DNA of 64,000 nt. It comes from Candidatus Symbiobacter mobilis CR (GTDB lineage Bacteria; Pseudomonadota; Gammaproteobacteria; Burkholderiales; Burkholderiaceae_C). Positions 28,702-44,137 of the stretch are shown here, piece by piece; the first letter of the stretch is position 1, and every line of letters starts with the position of its first letter. Both the position numbers and the translations under genes were made by a program. Location of the stretch: the NCBI RefSeq assembly GCF_000477435.1, contig NC_022576.1, forward strand, positions 744,001 through 808,000. The letters are read 5' to 3'. Under the pieces are notes generated by a model, which saw nothing but the letters and a program-made list of their open reading frames with translations, had not been told where the DNA came from and ran no database searches.

Positions 28702-28992
28702 ATGGCACGTGTAACGCGGCGTCCGGAGGCCGAAGCCGACATTCTCGAAATCTGGCTGTACATCGCCGATGACAGCGTTGTCGAGGCTGATCGCTGGATC
28801 GACAGATTGGATGAGCGCCTGGCACTGTGGGCAACCCAACCCAAAATGGGACGTGCTCGAGACGAACTGTCGCCTGGAATCCGCAGCCTTCCCTTCGGCC
28901 GGTACGTCGTCTTTTTCGAGCCGCTACCCGACGGAATCGACGTTGTTCGAGTTCTGCATGGCTCGCAAGACATTGACGAACAGTTCCAATGA
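28702..28992 (+). CDS. parE: ParE/RelE family toxin
   Basis: 96 residues. Seen: RPEAEADILEIWLYIADDS (helix alpha-1 with ParE-like pattern), WIDRLDERLALWATQPKMGR, SPGIRSLPFGRYVVFF and a final DGIDVVRVLHGSQDID, all in the order of ParE toxins that target DNA gyrase. Its ATG abuts the parD stop with no gap. The frame looks intact. The end lies 15 bp from an intron remnant. Family members can be RNases or gyrase poisons; the ParD partner favours ParE. Confidence 0.92.
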   Translation: MARVTRRPEAEADILEIWLYIADDSVVEADRWIDRLDERLALWATQPKMGRARDELSPGIRSLPFGRYVVFFEPLPDGIDVVRVLHGSQDIDEQFQ

Positions 28993-29580: not shown

Positions 29581-32500
29581 ATGATTGAACAACAAATCGA
29601 ACAAGGCTTCATCGACAAACTGACGGGGCTTAAATACGAATACCGCTCGGACATCACTGACCGCGCCGCTCTGGAGCAGAACTTCCGCGAAAAGTTCGAG
29701 GCCCTGAACCGCGTGCGCCTCACCGAAGCCGAGTTCGCTCGCCTGCTCGATGAGATCGTTACACCGGATGTCTTCACCGCCGCCAAAACCCTACGCAGCA
29801 TCAATGCCTTCACCCGTGACGACGGCACGCCGCTGAATTACAGCCTCGTCAACCTCAAGGACTGGTGCAAAAACCACTTTGAGGTCATCAACCAACTGCG
29901 CATCAACACGGACAACAGCCACCACCGCTACGACGTCATCCTCCTCATCAACGGCGTGCCCTGTGTGCAGATCGAGCTGAAGACCCTCGGCGTGAATCCG
30001 CGCCGGGCCATGGAGCAGATCGTCGAATACAAGCACGACCCCGGCAACGGCTACACCAAGACGCTGCTCTGCTTCATGCAGCTTTTCATCGTCAGCAACC
30101 GCGACCGCACCTACTACTTCGCCAACAACAACGCCCGTCACTTCGCTTTCAACGCCGACGAGCGCTTCCTGCCCATCTATGAGTTCGCAGACGAGGACAA
30201 CCGCAAGATCATCCAACTCGACGCCTTCGCCGAGCGCTTCATGAAAAAGTGCGACCTCGGCCGGACCATCAGTCGCTACATGGTGCTCCTCGCCGGGGAG
30301 CAAAAGCTCATGATCATGCGGCCCTACCAGGTCTATGCCGTGCAGCACATGGTGAAGTGCATTGATGAGGACAACGGCAACGGCTACATCTGGCACACCA
30401 CCGGCAGCGGCAAGACGCTCACCTCCTTCAAGGCTTCCACGCTGCTAAAGGAGAACGACCACATCCACAAATGCGTCTTCGTCGTGGACCGCAAAGACCT
30501 CGACCGCCAGACCCGCGAGGAATTCAACAAGTTCCAAGAAGGCTGCGTCGAAGAAAACACCAACACCGCCGCCCTCGTGCGCCGCCTGCTTTCAGAGGAC
30601 TACGCCGACAAGGTGATCGTCACCACCATCCAGAAGCTGGGCCTCGCGCTGGACGAAAACAGCAAGCGCAACAAGCAGCGCAGCAAAAACGGCCAGGCCA
30701 CCTACAAGGAGCAACTCGAAGCCCTGAAGGACCACCGCATCGTCTTCATCTTCGACGAGTGCCACCGCTCGCAGTTCGGCGAGAACCACAAGGCCATCAA
30801 AGCGTTCTTCCCCAAGGCCCAGCTCTTCGGCTTCACCGGCACGCCCATTTTTGACGCCAACGCTTCGCAGCAGAAGATCGAGGACACGCAGGCCTCCATG
30901 CGCACCACGGCGGACCTCTTTCAGAAGCAGCTTCATGCCTACACCATCACTCACGCGATTGAGGACGGCAACGTCCTGCGCTTCCACGTCGACTACTTCA
31001 AGCCGAAAGGCAAGAAGCTGCCGAAGCCCGGCGAGCCGCTCGCGAAGAAGGCCGTCATCGAAGCCATCCTGTCCAAGCACGATGCCGCCACCGGCGGCCG
31101 ACGTTTCAACGCCATCCTTGCCACCGCGTCCATCAATGATGCCATCGAATATCACGCGCAGTTCAAGGCCATGCAGGCCGAGAAACAGGCCGCCGATCCC
31201 GACTTCAAGCCGCTGAACATCGCCTGTGTCTTCTCCCCGCCCGCCGAGGGCGATCCCGATGTGAAGCAGATTCAGGAAGACCTTCCGCAGGAGCAGGCCG
31301 ACAACGAGGAAGACCCCGAGGGCAAGAAGGCCGCGCTCAAGGCCATCCTCGCCGACTACAACGCCCGCTACGGCACCAATCACCGCCTCGGCGAGTTCGA
31401 TCTCTACTACCAGGACGTACAGAAGCGCATCAAAGACCAGCAGTGGCCGAATGCCGACTACCCCTCGGCGCAGAAGATCGACATCACCATCGTCGTCGAC
31501 ATGCTGCTCACCGGCTTCGATTCCAAGTTCCTAAACACGCTCTATGTGGACAAGAACCTCAAGCACCACGGCTTGATCCAGGCCTTCTCCCGTACCAACC
31601 GCGTGCTCAACGGCAGCAAGCCCTACGGCAACATCCTCGATTTCCGCCAACAGCAGGATTCAGTGGATGCCGCCATCGCCCTCTTCTCCGGCGAGAAAAC
31701 CGGCGAGCAGGCGCGGGAAATCTGGCTCGTGGACAAGGCACCGGTGGTCATCCAGAAGCTGGAGACCGCCATGCAAAAGCTGGACAGCTTCATGAAGTCT
31801 CAGGGGCTGGATTGCACCCCCTCCGCCGTCGCCAATTTGAAGGGCGACGAGGCCCGCACCGCCTTCATCACCCACTTCAAGGAAGTCCAGCGCCTCAAAA
31901 CCCAGCTCGACCAATACACCGACCTCACCCAGGAAAACAAAGCCAGCATCGAGCAGGTGCTGCCCGAGGAAAACCTGCGCGGCTTCAAAGGCCAGTATCT
32001 GGAAACCGCCAAAAAGCTTCGGGATCAGCAGGGCAAGAGTGGCAACAAACCCGGCACCGACAGCCCCGTGGACCAGCTCGACTTCGAGTTCGTCCTCTTC
32101 GCCTCCGCCGTCATTGATTACGACTACATCATGGGCCTCATCGCCAAGTTCTCGGAAAAAGGCCCGGGCAAGTCGAAGATGACCCGCGAGGAACTCATCG
32201 GCCTCATCAGCGCCGATGCCAAGTTCATGAACGAGCGCGACGACATCGCCGAATACATCGGCACTCTCAAGGCCGGCGAGGGTCTCAGCGAATCCGCCAT
32301 CCGCGAGGGCTACACCCGCTTCAAGGTGGAGAAGAACGCTAAGGAACTCGCCGCCATCGCCCAAAAACATGGCCTCGCCACCGCCGCACTGCAAGCCTTT
32401 GTGGACGGCATCCTCGACCGCATGATCTTCGATGGCGAGCAGCTCGGCGACCTCATGGCCCCGCTCGACCTCGGCTGGAAAGCCCGCACCCAGGCCGAAC

Positions 32501-32586
32501 TCGCCCTGATGGAAGACCTCCTCCCTCTGCTCACCAAACGCGCCGGTGGCCGTGATATTTCAGGACTTTCTGCGTATGAACCGTGA
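29581..32586 (+). CDS. hsdR: Type I restriction enzyme, R (motor/nuclease) subunit
   Basis: 1001 residues. The N-terminal PD-(D/E)xK nuclease has D118 in HRYDVILL and QIELK (E132, K134). The SF2 motor has HTTGSGKT (Walker A, about 275-279), DECHRS (392-397), GFTGTP, and later MLLTGFDSKFLNTLYVDK and QAFSRTNR. The helical C-terminus contacts the methylase core. HsdR translocates DNA and cuts it far from an unmodified site. ATG 29581 is chosen; an in-frame GTG ten codons before is less likely. It is the first gene of the six-gene operon, separated from the next by a 135-bp spacer full of palindromes. Confidence 0.96.
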   Translation: MIEQQIEQGFIDKLTGLKYEYRSDITDRAALEQNFREKFEALNRVRLTEAEFARLLDEIVTPDVFTAAKTLRSINAFTRDDGTPLNYSLVNLKDWCKNHFEVINQLRINTDNSHHRYDVILLINGVPCVQIELKTLGVNPRRAMEQIVEYKHDPGNGYTKTLLCFMQLFIVSNRDRTYYFANNNARHFAFNADERFLPIYEFADEDNRKIIQLDAFAERFMKKCDLGRTISRYMVLLAGEQKLMIMRPYQVYAVQHMVKCIDEDNGNGYIWHTTGSGKTLTSFKASTLLKENDHIHKCVFVVDRKDLDRQTREEFNKFQEGCVEENTNTAALVRRLLSEDYADKVIVTTIQKLGLALDENSKRNKQRSKNGQATYKEQLEALKDHRIVFIFDECHRSQFGENHKAIKAFFPKAQLFGFTGTPIFDANASQQKIEDTQASMRTTADLFQKQLHAYTITHAIEDGNVLRFHVDYFKPKGKKLPKPGEPLAKKAVIEAILSKHDAATGGRRFNAILATASINDAIEYHAQFKAMQAEKQAADPDFKPLNIACVFSPPAEGDPDVKQIQEDLPQEQADNEEDPEGKKAALKAILADYNARYGTNHRLGEFDLYYQDVQKRIKDQQWPNADYPSAQKIDITIVVDMLLTGFDSKFLNTLYVDKNLKHHGLIQAFSRTNRVLNGSKPYGNILDFRQQQDSVDAAIALFSGEKTGEQAREIWLVDKAPVVIQKLETAMQKLDSFMKSQGLDCTPSAVANLKGDEARTAFITHFKEVQRLKTQLDQYTDLTQENKASIEQVLPEENLRGFKGQYLETAKKLRDQQGKSGNKPGTDSPVDQLDFEFVLFASAVIDYDYIMGLIAKFSEKGPGKSKMTREELIGLISADAKFMNERDDIAEYIGTLKAGEGLSESAIREGYTRFKVEKNAKELAAIAQKHGLATAALQAFVDGILDRMIFDGEQLGDLMAPLDLGWKARTQAELALMEDLLPLLTKRAGGRDISGLSAYEP

Positions 32587-32622
32587 ACCTTGTTCCATAC
32601 CACTAAGACACAACGAATGCCG

Positions 32623-32654
32623 CGACCATGTTCCTGACGTCAGGAATATGGTCG
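32623..32654. promoter_or_regulatory. 32-bp near-perfect palindrome between hsdR and the KilA-N gene
   Basis: The core TTCCTGACGTCAGGAA (32631-32646) is a perfect 16-bp palindrome. Flanking CGACCAT and ATGGTCG continue the symmetry with one mismatched pair. No T tract follows, so it is more likely an operator or RNA-processing hairpin than a terminator. Confidence 0.6.
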
Positions 32655-32670
32655 GTCTCTCTGCTTCTTA

Positions 32671-32690
32671 TTCCCTCGAATTCGAAGGAA
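32671..32690. promoter_or_regulatory. 20-bp palindrome with TCGAATTCGA core
   Basis: TTCCCTCGAATTCGAAGGAA is symmetric except for one pair. It shares the TCGAATTCGA core with the perfect 36-bp palindrome inside the following gene. It lies 31 bp before the KilA-N start codon. Confidence 0.5.
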
Positions 32691-32721
32691 TTGGGCTCAA
32701 TCCAACCTCTCGAAAAGCGCG

Positions 32722-33444
32722 ATGAGCAAAGCCAAACGCACCAGCATCGAAGTTCAGGGCACATCCATTGCGATGCTCTCCCATGACCGCCAGGACTTCC
32801 TTTGCCTCACCGATATCGCCAAGCTGAAAAACCCCGACCATTCGGACGATGTGATTCGCAACTGGCTGCGCAGCCGTAGCACCGTCGAGTTCCTCGGCGT
32901 CTGGGAGCGCCTTAACAACCCCGCTTTTAATCCCGTCGAATTCGACGGGATTAAAAGCCAGACCGGCCTGAACAGCTTCGTCCTCACCCCGAAGCAATGG
33001 ATCGAACAAACGGGCGCAATCGGCCTCCGCTCCAGTGCGGGCCGCTACGGCGGCACCTACGCCCACAAGGACATCGCCTTCGAGTTCGCATCCTGGGTAT
33101 CGGTCGAGTTCAAGCTCTACCTCATCAAGGAAACGCTCATCCCGCCCAGCATCACCACGGCCCAGGCCAGCCTCGCCTATGCCAGCGAGGCCGATCTGCT
33201 CAACGTCGCCCTCTTCGGCCAGACCGCGAAACAATGGCGCGATGCCCACCCCGAAGCCGAAGGCAACCTCCGCGACCACGCCCCGCTGGAACAGCTCGTC
33301 GTCCTCACCAACCTCGAAAGCCTCAACTCCGTGCTCATTCGCCAAGGACTCCTGGCCCCCGAACGCCTGCTCAAGCTCAATGAAATCGCCATCACCCAGA
33401 TGCGCACCCTGCTGGCGGACACCAACCTAAAACGGCTGCAGTGA
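32722..33444 (+). CDS. KilA-N domain DNA-binding-type protein (RhuM-like)
   Basis: 240 residues. The N-terminal KilA-N fold is seen in FLCLTDIAKLKNPDHSDDVI, NWLRSRSTVEFLGVWE, and GGTYAHKDIAFEFASWVS followed by FKLYLIKE. The KilA-N domain comes from phage and giant-virus proteins and is related to APSES DNA-binding folds; such genes are often found beside type I RM genes, with no settled function. The last codons overlap hsdS by one base (TGATG), so translation is likely coupled. A perfect 36-bp palindrome lies inside the coding sequence at 32923-32958. The start ATG has a weak ribosome site, and the frame is open further upstream. Confidence 0.85.
   Translation: MSKAKRTSIEVQGTSIAMLSHDRQDFLCLTDIAKLKNPDHSDDVIRNWLRSRSTVEFLGVWERLNNPAFNPVEFDGIKSQTGLNSFVLTPKQWIEQTGAIGLRSSAGRYGGTYAHKDIAFEFASWVSVEFKLYLIKETLIPPSITTAQASLAYASEADLLNVALFGQTAKQWRDAHPEAEGNLRDHAPLEQLVVLTNLESLNSVLIRQGLLAPERLLKLNEIAITQMRTLLADTNLKRLQ
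32923..32958. repeat. Perfect 36-bp palindrome inside the KilA-N gene
   Basis: The left arm GCTTTTAATCCCGTCGAA is followed directly by its exact reverse complement, with no spacer. It encodes part of NPVEFDGIK, a stretch that is conserved in RhuM-type proteins, so some of the symmetry is constrained by protein, but the flanks are not obviously so. It could form a cruciform, bind a dimer, or act as an RNA hairpin in the transcript. Confidence 0.9.
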
Positions 33445-34736
33445 TGAGCAGTAAGACCAAAACCACCGCCACGAAGGAAGAGGCAAGGCCCGCGCTGGTG
33501 CCGAAGCTGCGGTTTCCGGAGTTTCGGGGAGCGGAGGGGTGGACACCCGTAACGCTAAAAAAAGCATCTACGCCAATAACAGAGCGTGTTGGCGAAAGAA
33601 AATTGATGCCGGTAAGCATCTCTGCTGGCATTGGTTTTGTGCCACAAGCCGAGAAGTTCGGGCGTGACATCTCAGGCAACCAGTATCAGCTCTACACCTT
33701 GGTCAGTGACGGCGACTTCGTTTACAACAAAGGCAATTCGCTCAAATTCCCGCAAGGCTGTGTTTACCAGTTGCAAAGCTGGGGGCAGGTCGCCGCGCCG
33801 CATGTCTTCATCTGCTTTCGGCTCAAGGATGGCTACTCGAATGTCTTTTTTCAGAACTGCTTCGAGCAGAACATGCACGGCAAGCAGCTCAAAAAGCACA
33901 TCACGAGCGGCGCACGTAGCAATGGCTTACTGAACATCAGTAAAGAGGAATTCTTTGGTGTCGAAATCCCCACTCCACGCCCCGCCGAACAACAAAAAAT
34001 CGCCGAGTGCCTGAGTGCGGTGGACGAGCTGATGGCCGCGCAAGCGCGGAAAGTGGACGCGCTCAAGACCCATAAAAAAGGGCTGATGCAGCAGCTTTTC
34101 CCCCGCGAACGCGAAACCCAACCCCGCCTCCGCTTCCCCGAATTCCAAAACGCCGGGGAGTGGGTGGTGAGCGAGTTGGGAACTTTGAGCGACGTGCGAG
34201 ATGGAACTCATGATTCACCTGCATTTTTCCCAACGGGACGCCCACTTGTGACTTCCAAAAACCTGCGGCCCAATGGAACGCTCGATCTCGAAAATGTGAG
34301 TCTGATCTCCGAAGAAGACTATGAGCAAATCAACAAACGCTCCAAAGTCACAGTCGGCGACATTCTCTTCGGAATGATCGGAACTATTGGCAACCCAGTT
34401 TTGATCAAGTCGGAAGGATTCGCGATAAAGAACGTGGCTCTCATCAAGGAATTGGGGCCGCTTCTTAATGCGTTCCTCGTCCAGCTTTTACAAAGCAGGT
34501 ATGTGGCCGCAATCTTTGCGGTGCTGAACACTGGCAATAGCCAAAAGTTCATCGCTTTGGGAAAGATAAGAGGACTTCCGGTTCCTGCCCCATCCCTCCC
34601 CGAACAAGAACGCATCGCCTCGTGCCTGAGCAGCCTCGACGCCCTGATCACCGCCGAAACCCAAAAACTCGAAGCCCTCAAGACCCACAAGAAAGGACTG
34701 ATGCAGCAGCTTTTCCCTTCCCCCGAGGAGGAATGA
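33444..34736 (+). CDS. hsdS: Type I RM specificity subunit
   Basis: 430 residues with two target-recognition domains. Each is followed by a near-identical conserved region: PAEQQKIAECLSAVDELM with KVDALKTHKKGLMQQLFP, and PEQERIASCLSSLDALI with KLEALKTHKKGLMQQLFP. These repeats form the coiled-coil spacers that set the distance between half-sites. The N-terminal RFPEF repeat also recurs before TRD2. ATG 33444 overlaps the KilA-N stop. The specificity sequence cannot be predicted without homology. Confidence 0.95.
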   Translation: MSSKTKTTATKEEARPALVPKLRFPEFRGAEGWTPVTLKKASTPITERVGERKLMPVSISAGIGFVPQAEKFGRDISGNQYQLYTLVSDGDFVYNKGNSLKFPQGCVYQLQSWGQVAAPHVFICFRLKDGYSNVFFQNCFEQNMHGKQLKKHITSGARSNGLLNISKEEFFGVEIPTPRPAEQQKIAECLSAVDELMAAQARKVDALKTHKKGLMQQLFPRERETQPRLRFPEFQNAGEWVVSELGTLSDVRDGTHDSPAFFPTGRPLVTSKNLRPNGTLDLENVSLISEEDYEQINKRSKVTVGDILFGMIGTIGNPVLIKSEGFAIKNVALIKELGPLLNAFLVQLLQSRYVAAIFAVLNTGNSQKFIALGKIRGLPVPAPSLPEQERIASCLSSLDALITAETQKLEALKTHKKGLMQQLFPSPEEE

Positions 34737-34767
34737 AGGGTGGAAGTTTTCGCAACCTGACCCCATC

Positions 34768-37416
34768 ATGAGCAAGATGACATCCACCAATGACAAACAG
34801 TTCCCCCGCGGCGCGGAATGGGTGCGGGCAGACTTTCACCTGCACACACTCAAGGACCCTGGAGCGTCCCGGAAACCATTTCGGGATGAGTATCGCGGTG
34901 TGAACGAGAATGGTCACGATAAGGCCAACGGCTTTCCGAAAGACTGGATCGGTCGGCTGAAAGAAGAGCAGATTAGGGTGGCGGTGGTCACGAACCACAA
35001 CCATTTTGACCGGGACGAATACAAGACCTTGCGCAAACAGGGGGCGAACGAAGGAATCCTCGTCCTCCCAGGCGTGGAGCTGGGTATGAAAGACGGTGGT
35101 GGGGGAATCCACACGCTCATTGTCTTCAACCCCGATGGCTGGGTGGACAACCCGGAGCACGATGATCGGATCCATCGTTTTCTCTCCACCCAATTTCAGA
35201 GCACGCCGGACGAAGGCACTCGAACGAAGGACGATTTCTGCCACTGCCTGGAACTCCTAGACGGTGTGAAGGAAGATTACTTTGTGGTGTTCGCCCATGT
35301 GCAGAGCGACAACGGCCTTTTCCAGGAGCTGCAAGGAGACAACCTCGCCCACATGATCAACGGCTGCGGCAAGCGGTGGAGCGAGCGCGTGCTGGGCTTG
35401 CAGAAGGTCAAGAGGCTTGATGTCGTGAAAGCCCGATGGCCAGACACGCAGCCGATTCCTGCCCTGGTACAGGGCTCTGATCCCCAATGCATTGAGGCAG
35501 TAGGGAAGAGTGACCAGCACTGCTATCTGAAGCTTGGGGAGCTGTCCTTCGATGCAGTCAAGTTCGCCCTGTTCGACCACAAGCATCGGGTTCGCGCAGA
35601 ACTGCCTTCCCCCCGGCAAGTCGTGCTGTTGCAGCAGGTGCGCTTCCATGGCGGAGCCTTGGATGGTTTGGCCGTGCCTTTTTCTCCATCGCTGAACTGC
35701 CTCATTGGTCCGCGTGGAAATGGCAAGTCAGCAGTGATCGAGTGCCTGCGCCATGCTTTGGGTTTCCGTGAGGGTGCCGATGACCGCTACAAGTCTGGTT
35801 TGGTCGAGCGCATGCTGTCGCCCGCTGGCAAGGTGGTTGTAGAGGCCAAGGATGAGTTCGGGCGTGAAGTCCGGGTGGAACGGGAGCGAAGCGGCCAGCC
35901 ATCCGTTTATCTGGATGGTCAATATCGCGACATTTCTCCGGGATCGGTCCTCAAGGACATACTCTACTTCGGCCAGAAGGACCTCTCGGCCCGTTCGGAG
36001 TCGTTCGATGAGAGCTTTCTCGACAAGCTGCTGGCGGATAGGCTTGACCCCAAGCCGCAGGAAGAGGCGGCGCTCATCGAAGGCGTGCGCCAAGCGGCCC
36101 GGCAACTGAAAGAGACGTTGGAAGCCACCGAGAAGATCGCTGCGCTGCAAAAGGAGAAGAACGAACTGGATGCACAGCTCCAGGTCTTCACGGACAAGGG
36201 CGTGGACAAGAAACTTGCCGACATGACTCTCTTTGATGGGGACCGCCAGGCGATTGGCGCATGGCAACAGGCATTGAAGGAGCTGGGCACGAACCTCAAG
36301 GAGTCAGCGGATTGGGACGATGCGGATGCGGCGTTCCCCGTGCTGAAATCCAAGCGGAGCGAACCCATCGCTGTCGGCCTTGCCGCAGCCAAAGCGAAGT
36401 CCGACGAGGCCAAGACAACAGCTCAGGCAGCACTTCAGACCCTCCGGGAAGCATTCGTCACTGTGGGCGAGGCTCTTCAAAAGCTGGCACCAGTGCAGGA
36501 CGAGATGAAGCAAGAGGTAGCCGAACTTCAAAAGACGCTGAACGAACCTCAGCTTGATTTGGAGCTGTTCCGCAAGAAGAAGGCCCGGCTCGATCAGTTG
36601 GTGAAACTGCTGGCGGCAGGTGCCCAACGCGCCAAAACCGAGCAAGCTGCGCGTGACCTGTTGGGCGCGGCGGTGAACAAGCTGCACGATTTCTGGCGAG
36701 AAAAGTTCACCGAGCGGGAAGCCGAAGTGCGTCGTCTGGAAGCGGCACTTCCGTCGGAGATTCGTCTTCAGACGGCCTTCAAAGGCAAGCGTCGGGCTTT
36801 CGGTGAGTTCCTTCGCTCCAAATTCCGTGGGAGCGGTTTGCAGGCAGCATCCTACGAAACAATGGAAGAAGCGTTCATTGATGGCCGCGAGCTGTATCAA
36901 GCTCGCACTGACCTGGAGAAGCATCTGAGTGAAAACGCTGCGATGAAGGTGCGTTCCACGCTGCTAGAAAGTCTGGCGGATTTCCTGAGTTTCCGCACAC
37001 CGGATGAGACAGTCATCCTTTTCCACCAGAAGCCGTTGGGGGAATACTCACTCGGGCAGCGGGCCACAGTGATCCTGCATATTCTCATGCACCTACAGCG
37101 GCACTCGGTCATCCTCATCGACCAGCCGGAAGACGATCTGGACAACGAAACGCTCTACAGCCACTTCATCCGCCAACTACTGGAGCGGAAAGAGCTAACC
37201 CAGTTTGTTTTCGCCACCCACAATCCCAACATCCCAGTGCTGGGCGATGCGGAACAGGCCATCGTCTGCCGGAAAGAAGGAGAGACGTTTTCGTTCGACC
37301 ACGGCAGCATCGACGACAAAGACATCCAGCAACGCATCGTTACCGTGATGGAAGGCGGCGAGGACGCGTTCCGGCGCAGAAAGGAAATTTATCAATTGTG
37401 GAAGAGTTCGAACTGA
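34768..37416 (+). CDS. PHP-domain plus SMC-like ATPase (TrlF-type)
   Basis: 882 residues. An N-terminal PHP phosphoesterase-like domain has RADFHLHTL (His24, His26), VAVVTNHNHFDRDEY and PGVELG, all possible metal ligands, and FAHVQSDNG. An ABC/SMC-type ATPase follows: Walker A GPRGNGKS (314-321), a long coiled-coil arm (about 430-690), signature SLGQRA, Walker B VILIDQPEDDLDN (about 781-793) and the switch His in FATHNPN. Annotated elsewhere as TrlF-family. Such fusions of a nuclease-like head with an SMC-like sensor resemble RloC, OLD and other anti-phage ATPases, but this exact function is not established. It begins 31 bp after hsdS and overlaps the next gene by 19 nt. Confidence 0.85.
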   Translation: MSKMTSTNDKQFPRGAEWVRADFHLHTLKDPGASRKPFRDEYRGVNENGHDKANGFPKDWIGRLKEEQIRVAVVTNHNHFDRDEYKTLRKQGANEGILVLPGVELGMKDGGGGIHTLIVFNPDGWVDNPEHDDRIHRFLSTQFQSTPDEGTRTKDDFCHCLELLDGVKEDYFVVFAHVQSDNGLFQELQGDNLAHMINGCGKRWSERVLGLQKVKRLDVVKARWPDTQPIPALVQGSDPQCIEAVGKSDQHCYLKLGELSFDAVKFALFDHKHRVRAELPSPRQVVLLQQVRFHGGALDGLAVPFSPSLNCLIGPRGNGKSAVIECLRHALGFREGADDRYKSGLVERMLSPAGKVVVEAKDEFGREVRVERERSGQPSVYLDGQYRDISPGSVLKDILYFGQKDLSARSESFDESFLDKLLADRLDPKPQEEAALIEGVRQAARQLKETLEATEKIAALQKEKNELDAQLQVFTDKGVDKKLADMTLFDGDRQAIGAWQQALKELGTNLKESADWDDADAAFPVLKSKRSEPIAVGLAAAKAKSDEAKTTAQAALQTLREAFVTVGEALQKLAPVQDEMKQEVAELQKTLNEPQLDLELFRKKKARLDQLVKLLAAGAQRAKTEQAARDLLGAAVNKLHDFWREKFTEREAEVRRLEAALPSEIRLQTAFKGKRRAFGEFLRSKFRGSGLQAASYETMEEAFIDGRELYQARTDLEKHLSENAAMKVRSTLLESLADFLSFRTPDETVILFHQKPLGEYSLGQRATVILHILMHLQRHSVILIDQPEDDLDNETLYSHFIRQLLERKELTQFVFATHNPNIPVLGDAEQAIVCRKEGETFSFDHGSIDDKDIQQRIVTVMEGGEDAFRRRKEIYQLWKSSN

Positions 37417-38573
37417 GAAACCAGATCCTCCTTGGCGAGGACAGCACGCGGCAATTCAAGCGCGAGCCGTCGGCTGATGCCAAGATGGCGGGCGAAATCG
37501 TCGCCTTCGCCAACAGCGGCGGAGGGCGCATTTTCATCGGGGTTGAAAAGGATGGCACCATTGCCGGTCTTACCGGCGAAGAGGCGGAGAAGGTCGGCGA
37601 GGACATGGCGAAGGTCGCATGGGACAGCGTTCGCCCGCCCTTTTCCATTCTCTCGAAATCCATTCCAACGGGGGACGGCATCGTCGTAGTCATTGAGATT
37701 CCCGATGGAGCATCCAAACCCTATTGTGATAACAAGGGTGTCTATTGGGTAAAGAATGGGCCGGACAAACGCCGGGTGCAGAGTCCCGAAGAGCTGGCTC
37801 GCCTTTTCCAATCTGGAGAGAAGCTCTATGCAGAAAGCCAGGTGGTGGCAGCCTCAACACTGGAGGACTTTGACCACGAGCGTTTCAAGCGCTTCTACGA
37901 GACGAAGTATTCCGAAACGCCGCCCAGCCGAAGCGAGGAGCGTGAAGCCTACCAGCGAACACTTGAGAATCTGGAACTGGTGGATTCCGGGCGGGTGACC
38001 GTGGCCGGGTTGCTGCTGTTTGGAAAACGTCTTCCGGTTCTGCTGCCGGAAATGAAGATGGATGCTATTTGGTTCCAAGGCAGTGAGCGGGCCTCATCCG
38101 AATGGCACGATCAACGAACGATCACCGGGACGCTGGCCGAGCAATACGACGAAGGCATGGGTTTCTTGAAACGGTGGAATGCCCGCGTCCAAGGTGAGGG
38201 ATCGTTCAATCAAACCGGCCGACTCAAGGTGCCAGAAACGGTCTTCGAAGAGCTGCTAGTCAACGCGTTGATTCACCGTGACTACTTTATCAAGGACTCG
38301 ATCAAGGTGTTCATCTTCGATGATCGCATTGAAATCCGCAGTCCGGGAAAACTGCCGAACAGCCTCACTGTCAATCAGATTCGCAGGGGAGTTCGGCGCA
38401 GCCGCAACGTTCTCCTGGCATCGTTCGCGCCCGATCTTCTCCATTTTCGGGGCATTGGTAGCGGGATTGTGCGGGCACTCAAAGCTTGGCCTTCGCTTTC
38501 TTGGGTCAACGACGCAGAAAGCGAAGAGGTGATGGTGACTATCGAGTTGACTCCAACCGCACCAACAGCATGA
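37398..38573 (+). CDS. AlbA_2 (Schlafen-type) domain protein with C-terminal ATP-binding-like region
   Basis: 391 residues. The N-terminal AlbA_2/Schlafen segment has DSTRQFKREPSADAK, IVAFANSGGGRIFIGVEKDG and a SKPYCDNKGVYWVKNG strand. The second half has KVPETVFEELLVNALIHRDY, KVFIFDDRIEIRSPGKLPN and GIGSGIVRALK, the pattern of an HATPase-like (COG2865) ATP-binding domain. These proteins are called transcriptional regulators or helicases in annotations, with little experimental support. GTG 37398 is the start because it lies in the overlap with the ATPase gene; the stop overlaps the hsdM ATG (ATGA). Confidence 0.8.
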   Translation: MEEFELRNQILLGEDSTRQFKREPSADAKMAGEIVAFANSGGGRIFIGVEKDGTIAGLTGEEAEKVGEDMAKVAWDSVRPPFSILSKSIPTGDGIVVVIEIPDGASKPYCDNKGVYWVKNGPDKRRVQSPEELARLFQSGEKLYAESQVVAASTLEDFDHERFKRFYETKYSETPPSRSEEREAYQRTLENLELVDSGRVTVAGLLLFGKRLPVLLPEMKMDAIWFQGSERASSEWHDQRTITGTLAEQYDEGMGFLKRWNARVQGEGSFNQTGRLKVPETVFEELLVNALIHRDYFIKDSIKVFIFDDRIEIRSPGKLPNSLTVNQIRRGVRRSRNVLLASFAPDLLHFRGIGSGIVRALKAWPSLSWVNDAESEEVMVTIELTPTAPTA

Positions 38574-40183
38574 CCGATACCAACCAAAAGCAACTGGGCA
38601 ACACCCTCTGGAGCATTGCCGACCAACTGCGCGGGGCCATGGATGCGGACGACTTCCGCGACTACATGCTGTCCTTCCTCTTCCTGCGCTATCTCTCCGA
38701 CAACTACGAGACGGCGGCGAAGAAGGAGCTGGGGCGGGATTACCCAGATGTGGGGGGCGACACCCGCAAGGTGCCGCTGGCGCTCTGGTATGCGAACAAC
38801 GTGGACGACATCCCGGCGTTCGAGAAGCAGATGCGCCGCAAGGTGCATTACGTCATCCAGCCCGCGCACCTCTGGAACAGCATCGCCAACCTAGCCCGCA
38901 CCCAGAACGGCGAGCTGCTGAACACACTGCAGGCGGGCTTCAAATACATCGAGACGGAGTCTTTTGAGAGCACCTTCCAGGGCTTGTTCTCCGAGATTGA
39001 TCTGAGTTCCCCCAAGCTGGGCAAGACCTATCCCGATCGGAATGCCAAGCTCTGCACCATCATCCAGAAGATCGCCGAAGGGCTGGCGGAGTTTTCCACG
39101 GACATTGACGCGCTGGGCGATGCCTATGAATACTTGATCGGCCAGTTTGCCGCCGGGTCCGGCAAGAAGGCGGGCGAGTTCTACACCCCGCAGCAGATTT
39201 CCGACATCCTCTCCGCCATCGTCACGTTGGACAGCCAGGAACCGAAAACCGGCACCAAGAAGCGGCTGGAAAGCGTGCTGGACTTCGCCTGCGGCTCCGG
39301 CTCCCTGCTGCTCAACGTCCGCAAGAAGGTGAACAAGGCGGGCGGCACCATCGGAAAAATCTTCGGCCAGGAAAAGAACATCACCACCTACAACCTCGCG
39401 CGCATGAACATGCTGCTGCACGGGGTGAAGGACACGGAGTTCGACATCTTCCACGGCGACACCCTGCTCAACGAGTGGGACATGATGCGGGAGCAGAACC
39501 CCGCCAGAAAGCCGAGCTTCGACGCCATCGTCGCCAATCCGCCCTTCAGCTACCGCTGGGAACCTACCGACGCGCTTGCCGACGACGTGCGCTTCAAAAG
39601 CCACGGCCTCGCTCCCAAGTCCGCCGCCGACTTCGCCTTCCTGCTGCACGGCTTCCACTTCCTCAAGGACGAAGGCGTGATGGCAATCATCCTGCCCCAC
39701 GGCGTGCTCTTCCGTGGCGGTGCCGAGGAACGCATCCGCACCAAGCTACTCAAGGACGGCCACATCGACACTGTCATCGGCCTGCCCGCGAACCTTTTCT
39801 ACTCCACCGGCATTCCCGTCTGCATCCTCGTGCTGAAGAAGTGCAAAAAGCCCGACGACGTGCTCTTCATCAACGCCGCTGAGCACTTCGTGAAAGGCAA
39901 ACGCCAAAACCAACTGAGCGAGGAGCACATTGCCACGATCATCAGCACCTACCAATTCCGAAAGGAAGAGCCACGCTATTCCCGACGAGTGGAGATGGCT
40001 GAGATCGAGAAGAACGACTTCAACCTGAATATCTCACGTTACATCAGTACGGCGGTGGGCGAGGCAGAAGTCGATTTGCAGGCAATCAATACCGAGCTGG
40101 TCACCCTGGCACAGAATATCAAGGATGCACGGGACAAACACAATGTCTTCCTCAAAGAGCTGGGCCTGCCAGCCTTGCCGTAA
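38570..40183 (+). CDS. hsdM: Type I RM methyltransferase subunit
   Basis: 537 residues. Amino-terminal helical domain (NTLWSIADQLRGAMDADDF, FLFLRYLSDNY), then the SAM pocket: GEFYTPQQISDILSAIV, DFACGSGSLLLN, and the catalytic NPPF (Asn323 in AIVANPPFSYRW). It methylates adenine in the HsdS-specified site as M2S, and joins HsdR for cleavage. ATG 38570 overlaps the previous stop as ATGA; a longer frame from 38486 is open but not likely. Being last in the operon, after two extra genes, is unusual: hsdM more often precedes hsdS. Confidence 0.95.
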   Translation: MTDTNQKQLGNTLWSIADQLRGAMDADDFRDYMLSFLFLRYLSDNYETAAKKELGRDYPDVGGDTRKVPLALWYANNVDDIPAFEKQMRRKVHYVIQPAHLWNSIANLARTQNGELLNTLQAGFKYIETESFESTFQGLFSEIDLSSPKLGKTYPDRNAKLCTIIQKIAEGLAEFSTDIDALGDAYEYLIGQFAAGSGKKAGEFYTPQQISDILSAIVTLDSQEPKTGTKKRLESVLDFACGSGSLLLNVRKKVNKAGGTIGKIFGQEKNITTYNLARMNMLLHGVKDTEFDIFHGDTLLNEWDMMREQNPARKPSFDAIVANPPFSYRWEPTDALADDVRFKSHGLAPKSAADFAFLLHGFHFLKDEGVMAIILPHGVLFRGGAEERIRTKLLKDGHIDTVIGLPANLFYSTGIPVCILVLKKCKKPDDVLFINAAEHFVKGKRQNQLSEEHIATIISTYQFRKEEPRYSRRVEMAEIEKNDFNLNISRYISTAVGEAEVDLQAINTELVTLAQNIKDARDKHNVFLKELGLPALP

Positions 40184-40185
40184 AC

Positions 40186-40340
40186 CTCAAAGCGCTTTTT
40201 GCTCTCGGGCTTCCTCCAGACTACTTCTCACGAAGTAGCCCTTGCCGTCGGCTAATGGTTACTATTGCTCACGTTGAGTCCAATCCGATTCTCCCACAAG
40301 GGACTTTCACCCTATACGTTCACGCCCATGCTGGGCGCAC
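40186..40340 (-). repeat. Group II intron 5' remnant
   Basis: On the minus strand this starts GTGCGCCCAGCATGGGCG and runs to about the hsdM stop codon. It holds domain I sequence that is missing in the 331-nt copy, including a CTACTTCGTGAGAAGTAG hairpin and the GGAAGCCCGAGAGCAAAA segment seen in many group II introns. No 3' domains are present. The left limit is uncertain. Confidence 0.65.
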
Positions 40341-40567
40341 ATCGTTGGCAGCCAAATCATCTGCAGGTAGTGGCTGACAGAAAAGTCGGATTTTTGATGC
40401 GTGTACCCGGTACTTTCAGGAAGTGATCCGGAACCTAGACCGGATTACAAATTTTTTTGCGGTCGAATTTTGACAAAAACCATGTATCCTGCTCCAAAAA
40501 TTGAATTATTGGTGAATGAAGGAAAAGCTATCCTCTGCAACCACTCATGCATCCCTTGAAAAAGACC
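40341..40567. other. Intergenic region left of the ISNCY-like transposase
   Basis: About 230 bp without a gene. AT-rich from 40445, it probably includes one end of the insertion sequence. No matching terminal inverted repeat was found by eye. Confidence 0.5.
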
Positions 40568-40592
40568 GTCGAGCGGCATCAAGCCGCTCGAC
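40568..40592 (-). terminator. Hairpin across the transposase stop codon
   Basis: Perfect 10-bp arms, GTCGAGCGGC and GCCGCTCGAC, with a 5-nt loop. The transposase stop TCA (complement) is in the loop region at 40579-40581. No clear T tract follows in the minus direction, so a terminator role is likely but not certain. Confidence 0.5.
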
Positions 40593-42084
40593 GAATGGAT
40601 GGTGGTGTCGTTCGCTCGGCATCAATCGATTGCTGACGAACCACCATGCCAATACGGTAAAAATTTCGTGCCAAGACTGACAATGAAACATAGCGTTTGA
40701 ATCCTTTTATTCCCTCATCGGGGCACATATCCAAACCAAAGTGTTCCAATCCATTGATCGCCGACTCTACAGCAGAATGTGCTTTCCGTAGTTTCACAAA
40801 TGTCTCGCTCGATTCTCGTTCTTGTTCCGCTTGAGAACAGCGCCCTTTCTTTGGTAAAGCAGCACAGTCTAATAATTTTGCCAATTTTTTCTGATTCTCT
40901 TGACTGTGGAATCCTTTGTCAAAACTCACGGCATTCAAAGTCGAGAATCGTTCTTTGGCAGCTTCAACCATTGGTACAGCAACTTCGTTATCTTCTTGCT
41001 TCTCCATAACGTGATGATGCAGAATGAAACGATGTTGATCTTCCAGAATACAAACCTTTACCCCCAATTCCACAGGCACACCAGCCTTGCCTTTGCTTAT
41101 CCACTCCGTATGCGGTTCAAACAGCGAGAATATCTTTTCCGAATGCGGAATGCGTTCCCCGTTGATCACCCTACGGCGAATCTGATCTGATAACTTTTCT
41201 GCATGCCCTATGAAGACCTGCAGCTTCGATAGCAACCCTTGCTCCTGTGCGCTGATCTGCGATGCAGCCAAGACGACTTCCTGCCTTGTTTGGGTGGCGC
41301 GCTCGAACAGCTCTTTGGCTTGCTTGAGATATTCCTCGCATGCTTCGTGGATGGCAGCTTCCTTTGCTGCACGTTTGGCTTCATTTTTTGAATGAGAGCG
41401 CCGAAGCCGCTGGATATGGCGATACTGCTTTTTGAATTGGCGATAAGAGTGTTCATGCTGACGCCAGCCAGACAATTTATGTTTCTCCGCTAACTTTGCA
41501 CTCCATGCAATGATCTTTTTTATAGCATCAAAAAGAAGATTCAAATCGGTTGGAAAATGTACATCTGTTTCAACGACAAAGGAATCACAACGACCGTGTA
41601 GAACGTCGTCCGGGCTTTTTTTTACTAGCGTATGGCCGGTTTTGACCACAACTTGATTGATTCGATCAAGAATCTCTGGGGTAAATAACCTCAAATTATC
41701 TTTCAGGGTTTGCACGTTGTATTTTGTCTCATCATACCAGTCAGTATGCCCGAGCATTTGTCGCAATGTCCGATGTTGATTCACCAGCTCTTCCAATCGG
41801 TCGTAATCGATATTCAGACCCAATCGAACCACACCGATGACAAGAATTTGCCACTGCGACATACCTGGGCGACCCATATGTGCTTTTACTTTTTCACCAG
41901 AAGGGAGTACCGGGAGAATTTCTGAGAGGATAGAGAAAACTTCTTTGCGTACGTCTGGTATTGTGTAGATGTACTGAAGTCCTAGCAGCAATTTTGGGAT
42001 ATCATCGCGAGAACGCAGATCAAGTTGAATGTTGGCGATAGGATCTTCGCCTAATTTCATCTGAGGATTTATGACAGAGCGCAT
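40579..42084 (-). CDS. ISNCY-like transposase
   Basis: 501 residues. Seen: a helical N-terminal region with GRPGMSQWQILVIGVVRLGL, then an RNase H-like fold with DSFVVETDVHFPTDLNLL as likely first Asp, a long insertion rich in Lys and Glu, and VSFDKGFHSQENQKK and HSAVESAINGLEHFG near the end, consistent with the DDE/D transposases of ISNCY (IS1202/ISDol1-like) elements. The frame is intact. Codon use is clearly AT-richer than flanking genes. The second start at 42060 (MKLGEDPIAN) is an alternative. The element ends were not identified. Confidence 0.8.
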   Translation of the reverse strand: MRSVINPQMKLGEDPIANIQLDLRSRDDIPKLLLGLQYIYTIPDVRKEVFSILSEILPVLPSGEKVKAHMGRPGMSQWQILVIGVVRLGLNIDYDRLEELVNQHRTLRQMLGHTDWYDETKYNVQTLKDNLRLFTPEILDRINQVVVKTGHTLVKKSPDDVLHGRCDSFVVETDVHFPTDLNLLFDAIKKIIAWSAKLAEKHKLSGWRQHEHSYRQFKKQYRHIQRLRRSHSKNEAKRAAKEAAIHEACEEYLKQAKELFERATQTRQEVVLAASQISAQEQGLLSKLQVFIGHAEKLSDQIRRRVINGERIPHSEKIFSLFEPHTEWISKGKAGVPVELGVKVCILEDQHRFILHHHVMEKQEDNEVAVPMVEAAKERFSTLNAVSFDKGFHSQENQKKLAKLLDCAALPKKGRCSQAEQERESSETFVKLRKAHSAVESAINGLEHFGLDMCPDEGIKGFKRYVSLSVLARNFYRIGMVVRQQSIDAERTTPPSIRRAA

Positions 42085-42415
42085 GTAGTTCCCAATTATT
42101 TTAATGAAGATTGAAGTAGGATGAAAATATTATATCAAAATTAAAAATTTTGTGTGTAATGCGACATCTTATGCATAATCTCATGAAAATCGCAGGAAAG
42201 CGGCTCAATCTTCACCCACCCAAACGTAGCGTACCCTGTTGATTTTGCATGGTTTTCTATTTTTCTGTCAGATACCAGGTAGTAAAGTAGAGGTTCTTCG
42301 TGAAAAAATTATCGAAGCCACCACAGGAGCACAAATCCGGTCACAGGCAATTCACGGCAGCAACTCGTAAGGCGATAGCTGTTCCGCAGAATGAAATCTA
42401 AAAGAGTCACGGAAT
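42085..42415. other. AT-rich intergenic region between transposase and brnT
   Basis: 330 bp without a gene, markedly AT-rich (TATATCAAAATTAAAAATTT near 42132-42151). It probably holds the right end of the ISNCY-like element and the brnT promoter. No safe boundary was seen. Confidence 0.5.
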
Positions 42416-42596
42416 ATGCATTTTGAATGGGATCCGAAAAAAGCTACAATGAATCGGCGTAAACATGGCGTTACCTTTGAAGAAGCGACGAGCGCGTTGC
42501 GCGATGTGTTTTCGGCCACTGCTCACGACCCTGACCATTCGGATGATGAGGAACGATTTGTAACCTTTGGTGTTTCCTCCCAAGGGCGATTACTTA

Positions 42597-43506
42597 GAGC
42601 CTATTTCGGTAGGCAATATGCCCTTAAAGTGATTAGGGCGCAAGTGAGGTGCAACATGGCGATATACGTTTCGGGAAGTTTTTCCCAACGAACCAGAATT
42701 CGGCGAAAGCGATTCATCCAGCTATGTGTACGTTCTACTACCCAGCGCCGTGCCTTGAAACCAGCTTCTTGCTTTATAGATTTAGCTTCTTCGCCTCTGG
42801 AACGAATGTGAGCCGTAAAGCCAAATTCTTTGACGATCTCTCTTACTTCATCAAAATCGTATCCTTTGTCCAAGCAGATGCCTTGTGGTTTTGTATCCGT
42901 CGGGTCTGGTCGTTTTGCTTTGATGTCTTCCAGCGTACTCCTGACCAACTTCATGTCGTGCCGATTCGCACCGTCGATGGCGACGGCAAGCGGTATGCCT
43001 GCACCATCAGTAAGCACACTGCGCTTGACACCTTGCTTGCCTCGATCTGTTGGGTTGGCCCCAGTTGTTTGCTGACCTGCTAGGGGTGCTTTGGTTAACG
43101 CTCCATCCATGGATGTCCATGCCCAATCGATGCCTTGGGATTTGTCGTATTCGACCAATTGTTGTATCCAAAGGGCTGAAAATACACCTGCTTTCGTCCA
43201 TTCGCGAAAGCGTCGATAGGCAGAACTACACGAGCAAATTCCTGTCATGTTTAAGGCGTTCCACTGGCAGCCAGTTCGCAATACGAAAAGAATTGCGTTC
43301 ATTGCGCTGCGATCAGATACACGCGGATTATGGCAACCCAGGGGATGTTTTTTGGGTTCAGGGAGCGATAATTTTATTATTCCCCAGAGTGCATCATGCA
43401 ATCTCCACCCATCATTATGAAATACCAAACCCATAATTTTCCTCATCTATGTTATTGCGACTGTGATGATGAACATTATATATCATTAGCCTACCGAAAT
43501 AGGCTC
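42597..43506 (-). mobile_element. IS5 family insertion sequence (IS427/IS1031-like group)
   Basis: 910 bp with perfect 18-bp terminal inverted repeats beginning GAGCCTATTTCGGTAGGC at 42597-42614 and 43489-43506. A TTA flanks both ends (42594-42596, 43507-43509), fitting the 3-bp TNA target duplication of this group. It carries one transposase gene on the minus strand, whose stop codon lies in the left repeat. It interrupts brnT. Confidence 0.92.
42601..43434 (-). CDS. IS5 family transposase
   Basis: About 277 residues in one frame. N-terminal HPLGCHNPRVSDRSAMNAIL, then AWTSMDGALTKAPL (first catalytic Asp region), GIPLAVAIDGANRHDMKL, GICLDKGYDFDEVREIV (second Asp), and RRWVVERTHSWMNRFRR with the catalytic Glu, the usual DDE pattern of IS5/IS427. 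ATG 43434 is chosen because GAGG lies 7 nt before it; the ATG four codons upstream overlaps that site. The frame is intact, so the element may still be mobile. Confidence 0.92.
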   Translation of the reverse strand: MGLVFHNDGWRLHDALWGIIKLSLPEPKKHPLGCHNPRVSDRSAMNAILFVLRTGCQWNALNMTGICSCSSAYRRFREWTKAGVFSALWIQQLVEYDKSQGIDWAWTSMDGALTKAPLAGQQTTGANPTDRGKQGVKRSVLTDGAGIPLAVAIDGANRHDMKLVRSTLEDIKAKRPDPTDTKPQGICLDKGYDFDEVREIVKEFGFTAHIRSRGEEAKSIKQEAGFKARRWVVERTHSWMNRFRRILVRWEKLPETYIAMLHLTCALITLRAYCLPK

Positions 43507-43587
43507 TTACTGTATCACATACCGACAGAGGCAATGCCATTCGTATCATATCGGCGCGGCTAGCCACAAATATTGAGAGGAAAATTT

Positions 43588-43815
43588 ATGAAGAAGGTTA
43601 AATCAGGCATGACAGACGAGCTTAGACCAGAATACAAGCGATCAGATTTCGGTGAAATCGTGCGTGGCAAGTACGCAAACCAGATTAAAGCCGAAACTAA
43701 TGTAGTGCTTCTTGATCCTGATATTGCTGAGGCTTTTCCTAATGATGAAGCGGTAAACAAAGCGCTTCGGTATTTGCTGGAAGTGGCGAAAACATCATCC
43801 AGCCTAATCGGGTAG
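43588..43815 (+). CDS. brnA: BrnA-like antitoxin, 3' end altered by intron remnant
   Basis: 75 residues. MKKVKSGMTDELRPEYKRSD and FGEIVRGKYANQI followed by VVLLDPDIAEAFPNDEAVN match BrnA antitoxins with ribbon-helix-helix DNA binding. The C-terminal EVAKTSSSLIG includes the last residues Ile-Gly read from the intron copy at 43807, so the natural end was replaced. A GAGAGGA precedes the ATG. It should still bind DNA and toxin, but its partner brnT is broken, leaving an orphan antitoxin. Confidence 0.85.
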   Translation: MKKVKSGMTDELRPEYKRSDFGEIVRGKYANQIKAETNVVLLDPDIAEAFPNDEAVNKALRYLLEVAKTSSSLIG

Positions 43816-44137
43816 GCAACGGCTTCTCACCGTCGCCCCCCACACCACCCACCGTGCGGGTCCGCAGTGGGCGGTGCTACAAGTCGGCTCGCTCGACAAA
43901 GTCTTTCACTTCATAACCATGTATCCCTGTGCCTTGCACCACAGGTCTTTCCCACGCAGCAAGCATTGTTCCAGTAACCAGACGTTGGATATGGCCTGAT
44001 TGATAACCGGGGTTCTGGACATCTGCCAGTAGCTCTTGCTACTGTCGGCTAGTGGTTACTATTGCTCACGTTGAGTCCAATCCGGTTCTCCCACAAGGGA
44101 CTTTCACCCTATACGTTCGCGCCCATGCTGGGCACAC
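43807..44137 (-). repeat. ORF-less group II intron copy
   Basis: 331 nt on the minus strand. 5' end GTGTGCCCAGCATGGGCGCG, then AGGGTGAAAGTCCCTTGTGG. The 3' part has the same domain V (CACCGCCCACTGCGGACC with its 3' strand) and domain VI as the 29008 copy, ending CTACCCGAT. The middle lacks the domain I segment found at 40186-40340. It truncates brnA on one side, and stops 24 bp before rmuC on the other. Confidence 0.75.

Follow-up and report, generated by a model that had tools for sequence, protein, structure and literature searches.

The operon and the slot before hsdM

The DNA analyzed here, a window of 64,000 nucleotides from Candidatus Symbiobacter mobilis CR (contig NC_022576.1, positions 744,001 to 808,000 of the forward strand), carries a six-gene type I restriction-modification (RM) operon at 29581-40183, with hsdR, KilA-N, hsdS, trlF, trlG, and hsdM in this order. 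All six reading frames are open, all are on the + strand, and each product is matched by domain models, which bears out a first-pass annotation that had placed a six-gene operon here, with extra defense-type genes embedded among the RM genes. Two of the extra genes, trlF and trlG, occupy exactly the usual position of PrrC in this branch of RM systems. The features are as follows.

29581-32586, + strand: hsdR, type I restriction subunit with an EcoR124-like C terminus (TIGR00348, 379 bits, cut-off 285; PF12008; PADLOC REase_I PDLC03048, 1117 bits)
32722-33444, + strand: KilA-N domain protein (PF04383 over residues 10-137, E 4e-19; PADLOC PDC-S22, E 5e-104)
33444-34736, + strand: hsdS, specificity subunit with two target recognition domains (TRDs) (PF01420)
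34768-37416, + strand: trlF (NF045780, 456 bits, cut-off 350, profile positions 1-944)
34850-35600 (approximate borders), + strand: PHP cassette inside trlF, class B allele (drop in DNA identity and protein classes)
37398-38573, + strand: trlG, SLFN_AlbA_2 and HATPase_c_4 (GHKL-type) domains (PF04326 and PF13749)
38570-40183, + strand: hsdM, N6-adenine methyltransferase subunit (TIGR00497, 400 bits, cut-off 243; PF02384; PF12161)

HsdR, HsdM, and HsdS are intact in one operon, each above the cut-off of its model (TIGR00348, TIGR00497, and PF01420), and are predicted to carry out ordinary DNA restriction and methylation. The operon chassis is type IC-like, with one slot for additional genes between hsdR and hsdS and another between hsdS and hsdM. 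Overlaps of 1 to 19 nt had been described between its genes, and several junctions fit that description: KilA-N and hsdS share 1 nt if hsdS starts at the ATG at 33444 and 4 nt if it starts at the GTG at 33441, trlF and trlG share 19 nt, and trlG and hsdM share 4 nt (ATGA). The remaining junctions are gaps, of 135 nt between hsdR and KilA-N and 31 nt between hsdS and trlF.

We surveyed relatives of this chassis with the window HsdM against 398 genomes, blind to cargo. This returned 13 places of at least 71% identity, the window included, of which 12 were examined; a match at a contig edge (G209) was left out, as were the weaker matches G120 and G266 (47-48%). Directly preceding hsdM, 8 of the 11 other relatives have prrC (PADLOC PrrC, 427-468 bits), 2 have RhuM, and 1 has Bro-N. 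In the window, this slot holds trlF-trlG, with trlG directly before hsdM and overlapping it, the position of a PrrC-type guard in a type IC-like operon. None of the six window proteins matches PrrC in PADLOC (for hsdS, trlF, and hsdM, among the best 25 families). Plasmid relatives show the order hsdS-prrC-hsdM in L213 and L216, with an insertion sequence before hsdM in L214; these three were found via DNA similarity to the window and so stand outside the survey count. A terminal hsdM, which the first-pass annotation had considered unusual, is normal for this branch: hsdM comes last in all seven surveyed loci that have hsdR, hsdS, and hsdM with an HsdM at least 74% identical (L218 and L223-L228).

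In a tree of 22 HsdM rows, those that carry trlF-trlG only (the window, L042, L043, and L056) form one clade (support 100/98), which is sister to two prrC rows (96/97) and nested inside prrC-carrying rows. Plasmids carrying both trlF-trlG and prrC form a separate clade (99/99). Four distant rows, labeled "none", root the tree; one of them, L229, has only 354 bases before hsdM, and another, L122, on a very long branch, carries prrC and trlF-trlG after hsdS. The tree omits L044, L050, and L051, whose hsdM is broken or cut, along with L219, L220, L222, and L232. Because prrC precedes hsdM in 8 of 11 relatives and the trlF-trlG clade nests within prrC-carrying rows, we place trlF-trlG in the PrrC slot. 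The simplest reading would be that prrC is the older cargo, which trlF-trlG replaced in one lineage and was added to in others.

TrlF, TrlG, and the loci that carry them

The gene first described as a PHP-SMC ATPase is a member of the TrlF family, matching NF045780 over its full length above the curated cut-off; the window genome has one such gene, and 28 of the 398 genomes of the phylum have members above this cut-off. TrlF consists of a PHP metal-dependent phosphoesterase domain (approximately residues 17-279) and an SMC/Rad50-type ABC ATPase with a coiled coil (approximately residues 285-866). Its AlphaFold2 (AF2) model (predicted local distance difference test [pLDDT] 86) has structural matches to EndoQ, in the PHP part (17-279), and to SMC/Rad50 heads. 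Residues H24, H26, H77, E104, H115, H177, and D238, the likely metal ligands by analogy with PHP enzymes, are kept in the 124 TrlFs classed below, in all PHP classes, with the exception of one row that starts after H24 and H26. All 124 share the same Walker A, signature, Walker B, and H-loop residues. The gene first described as an AlbA/Schlafen ATPase has the TrlG layout, AlbA_2 and HATPase_c_4, directly downstream of trlF; its AF2 model (pLDDT 89) has structural matches to 3lmm and to Schlafen N-domains, and residues E285, N289, H293, R294, E312, G317, N337, and G352 are present in all 96 trlF-adjacent TrlGs. Of the two marks of RloC and other Rad50-like anticodon nucleases, Pfam finds no anticodon-nuclease domain in TrlF or TrlG, and no search was aimed at a zinc hook.

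Loci with trlF were drawn from plasmids (5 regions read at first among 1115 records with a match), genome contigs (the best 80 of 436 relatives), viral contigs (2 of 3 loci), and the 398 genomes of the phylum (20 regions fetched from the 28 above the cut-off); TrlF protein homologues are the best 120 of 1899. RM genes were detected by hidden Markov models (HMMs) grown from few seeds, which divergent RM genes may escape, and many contigs are short. Among the best 80 of 436, the 17 closest loci (L041-L057) have a best segment of 58-91% identity, and the next reach at most 37%. Most of these 17 (11) are labeled as Verrucomicrobiota. RM genes or pieces of them occur within 5 kb in 10 of the 17 (4 of the 7 that have 3 kb or more on each side). 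The order hsdR-hsdS-trlF-trlG-hsdM is complete in L042 and L056, and hsdS-trlF-trlG-hsdM is found in L043, L044, L050, and L051, partly cut or with a broken hsdM; L044, whose hsdM is broken, also has a gene for an AlbA_2-HATPase-Fic_C protein (Pfam) between hsdR and hsdS. Elsewhere the arrangement differs. Plasmids L010 (IncC) and L217 (IncA) have hsdR-trlF-trlG-hsdS-prrC-hsdM as one operon, and the viral-collection contig L122 (IMG/VR) has hsdM-hsdS-prrC-trlF-trlG-hsdR, with hsdR running to the locus end. Other orders with small gaps are trlF-trlG-hsdR (L102), hsdM-hsdS-trlF-hsdR (L203), and hsdS-trlF (L054), and L052 has a fused HsdM-HsdS followed by trlF. Since the arrangements are several and distinct, the trlF-trlG pair, or trlF alone, has entered RM operons on more than one occasion.

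The pair is a unit in its own right. Across loci its gene order is conserved, with trlG immediately 3' of trlF in 72 of the 100 TrlF loci counted, and the gap takes the value -16, -10, or -19 in 56 of 100 (overlaps of 19, 13, or 22 nt including the stop codon). For 38 of these 56 overlapping pairs, no RM gene was detected at a distance of up to 5 kb. The overlap therefore belongs to trlF-trlG wherever the pair is found, and we rejected overlap length as a sign of joint selection with the RM genes, which the first-pass annotation had taken it to be. In whole genomes, a hand count placed 3 of 32 TrlF positions above the cut-off within 5 kb of a Methylase_S match (2 of 31 without the window); about 0.2 would be expected by chance, given approximately 43 HsdS clusters in approximately 113 Mb, so the association is modest.

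Several further loci add variety. In L060, L063, and L104, trlF-trlG lies beside genes with weak HsdM-profile matches, which in L060 and L104 are Eco57I/MmeI-type methylases by Pfam, so that the pair also meets other RM-like types. Many alphaproteobacterial trlF genes, including those of L007, L073, L074, L077, L083, L090, and L097, have no detected adjacent trlG, and TrlF may therefore act without TrlG there. In the trlF-trlG plasmid operons, a short gene for a helix-turn-helix protein stands ahead of hsdR (L010, 5743-5952; L217, 2586-2795) and could be a relative of Photorhabdus trlR. On the Akkermansia-named metagenome contig L043 (4449-8467), trlG is separated from a complete hsdM by two additional fragments of the hsdM 5' end, a pattern that resembles a duplication of the junction. 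Finally, the window's own genome holds two AlbA_2-HATPase genes with a Fic-like C-terminal domain at another locus (L191, C1:1662000-1678000; 7409-8836 and 9738-11543), the first of which is 41% identical to window TrlG; trlF was not detected beside them.

The KilA-N gene has a different distribution. Members of its family adjoin hsdS in type I loci L175, L176, and L178, 3 of the 12 KilA-N regions fetched, several of the others being split, partial, or cut by contig ends. KilA-N and TrlF occur together in the window only, 1 of 152 fetched TrlF loci (duplicates included). We thus rejected KilA-N as part of a conserved six-gene system; judging from the loci compared, it is a recurrent passenger in its own right, placed here between hsdR and hsdS. 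The hsdR-hsdS slot is itself variable, holding nothing (L042, L056, and L216), KilA-N (window), Bro-N (L223), YhcG (L214), an AlbA_2-HATPase-Fic_C gene (L044), or trlF-trlG (L010). We found no open-access paper naming both "KilA-N" and "hsdS". The exact combination, proposed earlier to be unusual, was indeed seen in the window only, although its terminal hsdM is ordinary. The accompanying idea of a composite system, restriction plus a restriction-sensing effector, fits trlF-trlG in the PrrC slot by analogy but does not extend to the six genes as a conserved unit.

At its 3' end, the operon adjoins a group II intron D1-D4 match on the - strand at the end of hsdM (40177-40237; Rfam RF02001, 34.9 bits, gathering threshold 32), with two transposase genes nearby (40579-42084 and 42601-43446). 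The operon is flanked by toxin genes of ParE type and BrnT type (28702-28992 and 42416-42811). The G+C content is approximately 45-47% over 40000-44000, just 3' of the operon and including the transposases, and approximately 56-66% elsewhere around the operon; the low-G+C stretch is perhaps an island edge.

Variation of the PHP domain within TrlF

Compared in 60-residue blocks, residues 301-882 of window TrlF are 50-100% identical to the close group, mostly above 75%, whereas over residues 121-240 the identity to 14 of 16 close rows drops to 30-40% (the exceptions are L041 and L055; L051, whose trlF is broken, was excluded). To describe this variation we classed the PHP core (residues 100-245) of the 120 best homologues of 1899, the window, and four plasmid TrlFs, one truncated row remaining unclassed. 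This yields classes A (52 members), B (49, including the window), C (21), and D (2). Mean PHP identity is 85-87% within A, B, and C and 37-54% between classes. ATPase identity, in contrast, is approximately 84% between the two main PHP clusters and 85-86% within them. Individual pairs make the same point: P0005 and P0061 are 99.0% identical over residues 300-882 and 42% over 28-250, and P0001 and P0049 are 98.5% and 40% identical over the same ranges.

The ATPase phylogeny agrees with exchange of the PHP domain. On the best quick ATPase tree (120 rows, 110 of them different), PHP class changes 34 times. Shuffled labels give a mean of 51.7 changes, with 34 or fewer in 0 of 200 shuffles, so the classes still cluster and are not randomly distributed. 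This count omits a step used in an earlier one, which had removed near-duplicates only within classes and thereby inflated the mixing. Well-supported branches of the tree alone force at least 9 (A), 5 (B), and 8 (C) class changes, and an approximately unbiased (AU) test on the ATPase data rejects a single clade for class B (log-likelihood lower by 767, p 2.4e-7). PHP swapping within the close group is thus well shown by these comparisons. Over greater distances, an AU test on the PHP data does not reject a single clade for the whole close group (31 rows versus 12 distant TrlFs; p 0.40). For this reason, the argument for PHP transfer between distant scaffolds is the contrast in identity, as between L042 and L010, which are 75% identical in PHP and 30% in the ATPase.

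The borders of the exchanged part can be seen at both levels. DNA identity between the window and eight of the ten relatives compared (L042, L056, L043, L044, L049, L050, L047, and L051) is 46-61% over 34850-35449, 64-69% over 35450-35599, and mostly 70-95% downstream. Upstream of the cassette, relatives that have hsdS retain 62-86% identity at its 3' end. In the protein, the swapped part starts close to the HxHT motif (residues 24-27) and stops around residue 255, and thus covers approximately residues 28-255; in the AF2 model its borders lie close to both ends of the PHP fold. Many TrlF homologues come from metagenome contigs, and a chimeric assembly, or an alignment error, could in principle produce such a mosaic. 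We consider this very improbable and rejected chimeric assembly as the source, as each class is present on a long contig or in an isolate: class B in the 2.99-Mb single-contig genome of the window, class C in P0083 (3.99-Mb contig) and P0119 (2.0 Mb), and class A in P0086 (353 kb) and in plasmids L007 and L010. That the drop in DNA identity coincides in position in 8 of the 10 relatives also speaks against it.

The TRDs of HsdS show the same pattern of a variable cassette. Their blocks are 6-40% identical to close relatives, and the conserved blocks on either side are mostly 63-97% identical. A variable cassette, conserved flanks, and recombination are features shared with the HsdS TRD shuffling treated in the available part of PMC3874165, and the window operon has both kinds of cassette; the TrlF cassette differs in that it is an enzyme-type domain dependent on metal and is not known to read DNA. 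As a separate observation, window TRD1 shares 60-87% identity per block with its counterpart in the HsdS of the Escherichia coli IncC plasmid (L010) and 6-30% with that of the closest operon relatives; the window and L010 RM systems may share recognition of a half-site.

A class-B-like PHP is present both in the window, within an RM operon, and in L055, where no RM gene was detected, so the class is not tied to RM. Because the seven ligand-type residues are kept in all classes, it is more likely that the variation changes what the PHP domain meets than that it alters metal binding. Like that of the HsdS TRDs, this diversity is maintained by recombination, probably because the domain contacts a variable target or is what phage inhibitors attack. 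Tentatively, and aware that the balance of probability lies against so specific a proposal, we suggest that PHP could be a shuffled specificity cassette of an innate-immune ATPase, the counterpart of a TRD, with at least three alleles circulating on one ATPase-TrlG scaffold. The shuffled guard would then have displaced PrrC in some operons, and one operon would contain two independently shuffling recognition parts, HsdS TRDs facing DNA and PHP facing a phage-made or phage-altered target.

Candidate roles of TrlF-TrlG

Type I operons with an embedded guard are already known. According to the available parts of PMC12707154 and PMC3874165, PrrC is held by its RM enzyme and is released or activated upon inhibition of EcoprrI. 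The window operon resembles EcoprrI/PrrC in being type IC-like with an embedded extra ATPase gene, in this branch usually directly before hsdM, and differs in that no prrC was found and trlF-trlG stands in its place.

The names trlF and trlG come from the temperature-restriction locus of Photorhabdus laumondii, the operon trlR-trlF-trlG, as described in the available excerpts of PMC7554251. In that study, clones able to grow at 36 °C were selected and 29 were sequenced; trlG carried a point change in 19 of them and a transposase insertion in one, and deletion of the operon also permits growth at 36 °C. The two genes and their order are the same as in the window, and TrlG has AlbA_2 at residues 14-128 in Photorhabdus and 14-127 in the window, followed in both by HATPase_c_4. 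Of the 11 P. laumondii TrlG missense sites, 9 have the same residue in the window, compared with 156 of 384 positions overall (binomial 0.007); numbering was transferred through a stand-in (P0216) in which the 13 published residues are all in their reported places. The Photorhabdus operon limits growth by temperature and, in these excerpts, contains no RM genes, whereas the window genes lie inside an RM operon. No trlR lies directly upstream of window trlF, where hsdS is found 31 nt away; trlR was not searched for elsewhere.

Three features, the place of prrC, an SMC/Rad50-kind ATPase with a PHP head, and a TrlG homologue that restricts growth, suggest a guard role. In the model that we propose, trlF-trlG would be a latent guard module, inactive while the RM enzyme is intact. 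Inhibition of the RM enzyme by a phage, or DNA damage, would presumably cause TrlF to fire its PHP domain, which would attack a nucleic acid or nucleotide, and TrlG would be needed for the ensuing growth arrest; the operon would thus act against phage. We give an even chance to this reading as a whole, namely, a type IC-like RM operon in which prrC was replaced by trlF-trlG and KilA-N was inserted between hsdR and hsdS, with TrlF-TrlG as a PrrC-like guard arresting growth upon RM inhibition or DNA damage.

A number of observations weigh against it. In the slot survey, trlF-trlG was present in the window only, and in the three RhuM and Bro-N loci the contig stops shortly upstream, so a prrC may be present beyond its end. 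An RM gene lies within 5 kb of 10 of 63 distant TrlF loci, many of them on cut contigs (6 of 28 given at least 3 kb on both sides), and of 2 of 20 genome-survey loci (2 of 17 by the same standard). Because RM genes are near so few distant and genome loci, TrlF-TrlG cannot depend on RM in general. Thus, the first-pass annotation's own counterargument, that the extra genes might be found mostly outside RM loci with no conserved order, applies to the distant loci but not to the gene order, which is conserved, or to the close loci with their frequent RM genes. L049 and L055 have trlF-trlG with no RM gene detected in approximately 10 kb upstream and 8-9 kb downstream, and in L041 and L047 the pair follows hsdR fragments only, on contigs that end soon after trlG, where hsdM could follow. 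A toxin silenced by RM should harm its host when RM is missing, and L049 and L055 suggest that free trlF-trlG is tolerated; with many copies lacking a detected RM gene, coupling to RM would have to be a local adaptation. Furthermore, the trigger in Photorhabdus is temperature, in a three-gene operon without RM genes, and the excerpts of PMC7554251 report no recovered trlF mutants.

These points favor another explanation, in which TrlF-TrlG is an autonomous anti-phage or anti-plasmid module related to the single-gene PHP-SMC system Ppl and the RM operon is a landing site with a shared promoter and no functional coupling. We retain it as a possibility short of even odds because free trlF-trlG copies exist and seem tolerated (L049 and L055). 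It is consistent with the 53 of 63 distant loci without an RM gene within 5 kb, a rough figure given contig cuts and few-seed HMMs, with L041 and L047, where the pair stands beside hsdR fragments, and with the Yersinia ruckeri plasmid L009, which has trlF-trlG and no annotated hsd gene in the stretch read. A related plasmid, pYR3, does have two small hsdM-annotated genes upstream of trlF (PMC7554251, in part). Ppl (NF042955, PADLOC PDLC02208) also combines PHP with an SMC-type ATPase, and window TrlF matches both models partly; NF042955 names Ppl an anti-phage protein. The NF042955 match, in the C-terminal part of TrlF, scores 135.5 bits, far below the cut-off of 1000; TrlF as a whole passes NF045780 instead and is accompanied by trlG. 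The tight and repeated placement of the pair in type I operons, in several orders, and the exact prrC position held by the trlF-trlG-only clade argue against an autonomous module.

TrlF could alternatively be a processor of DNA ends or lesions, as a single-chain Mre11-Rad50 analogue or an EndoQ-like PHP on an SMC head, degrading fragments made by HsdR and thus serving as a restriction helper rather than a suicide guard. The structural matches invite this idea, but a shared fold does not show function. We find it less likely than not, as TrlF stands where a tRNase guard usually does, its partner TrlG limits the growth of the host in Photorhabdus (in the excerpts cited above), and most distant TrlF copies have no detected restriction gene nearby. 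A further point against the proposed guard concerns TrlG itself, which has Gln19 where SLFN14 has Glu; the second Glu of the Schlafen acidic triad is thus absent. This Gln is found in 64 of 96 TrlGs and in 50 of 50 in alignment A6. It sets TrlG apart from Schlafen RNases and the BREX-associated Schlafen/AlbA_2-HATPase proteins (available part of PMC12839542). The SLFN13 variants E205A and E210A are reported to be inactive. With Gln at a catalytic Schlafen Glu position in so many members, TrlG may be a non-nuclease.

By title and abstract, PMC7554251 alone among the open-access "TrlF" and "TrlG" matches listed concerns these proteins, the same letters elsewhere denoting tropolone genes, fluorescence methods, and the like; it notes hsdM-annotated genes beside Y. 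ruckeri trlF and, in its available excerpts, draws no link to RM. Neither trlF-trlG in the exact PrrC slot nor PHP shuffling was found in the open-access literature, preprints and subscription papers being outside the search. The window operon joins the PrrC paradigm, the Photorhabdus growth-restriction locus, and the TrlF family, previously separate threads in the literature consulted. If trlF-trlG replaces PrrC functionally, known RM inhibitors (Stp and Ocr, for example) would offer a direct test of what switches TrlFG on. The cassette exchange suggests that PHP is the side of TrlF engaged in an arms race, and the natural allele pairs P0005/P0061 and P0001/P0049 are ready reagents for finding its target.

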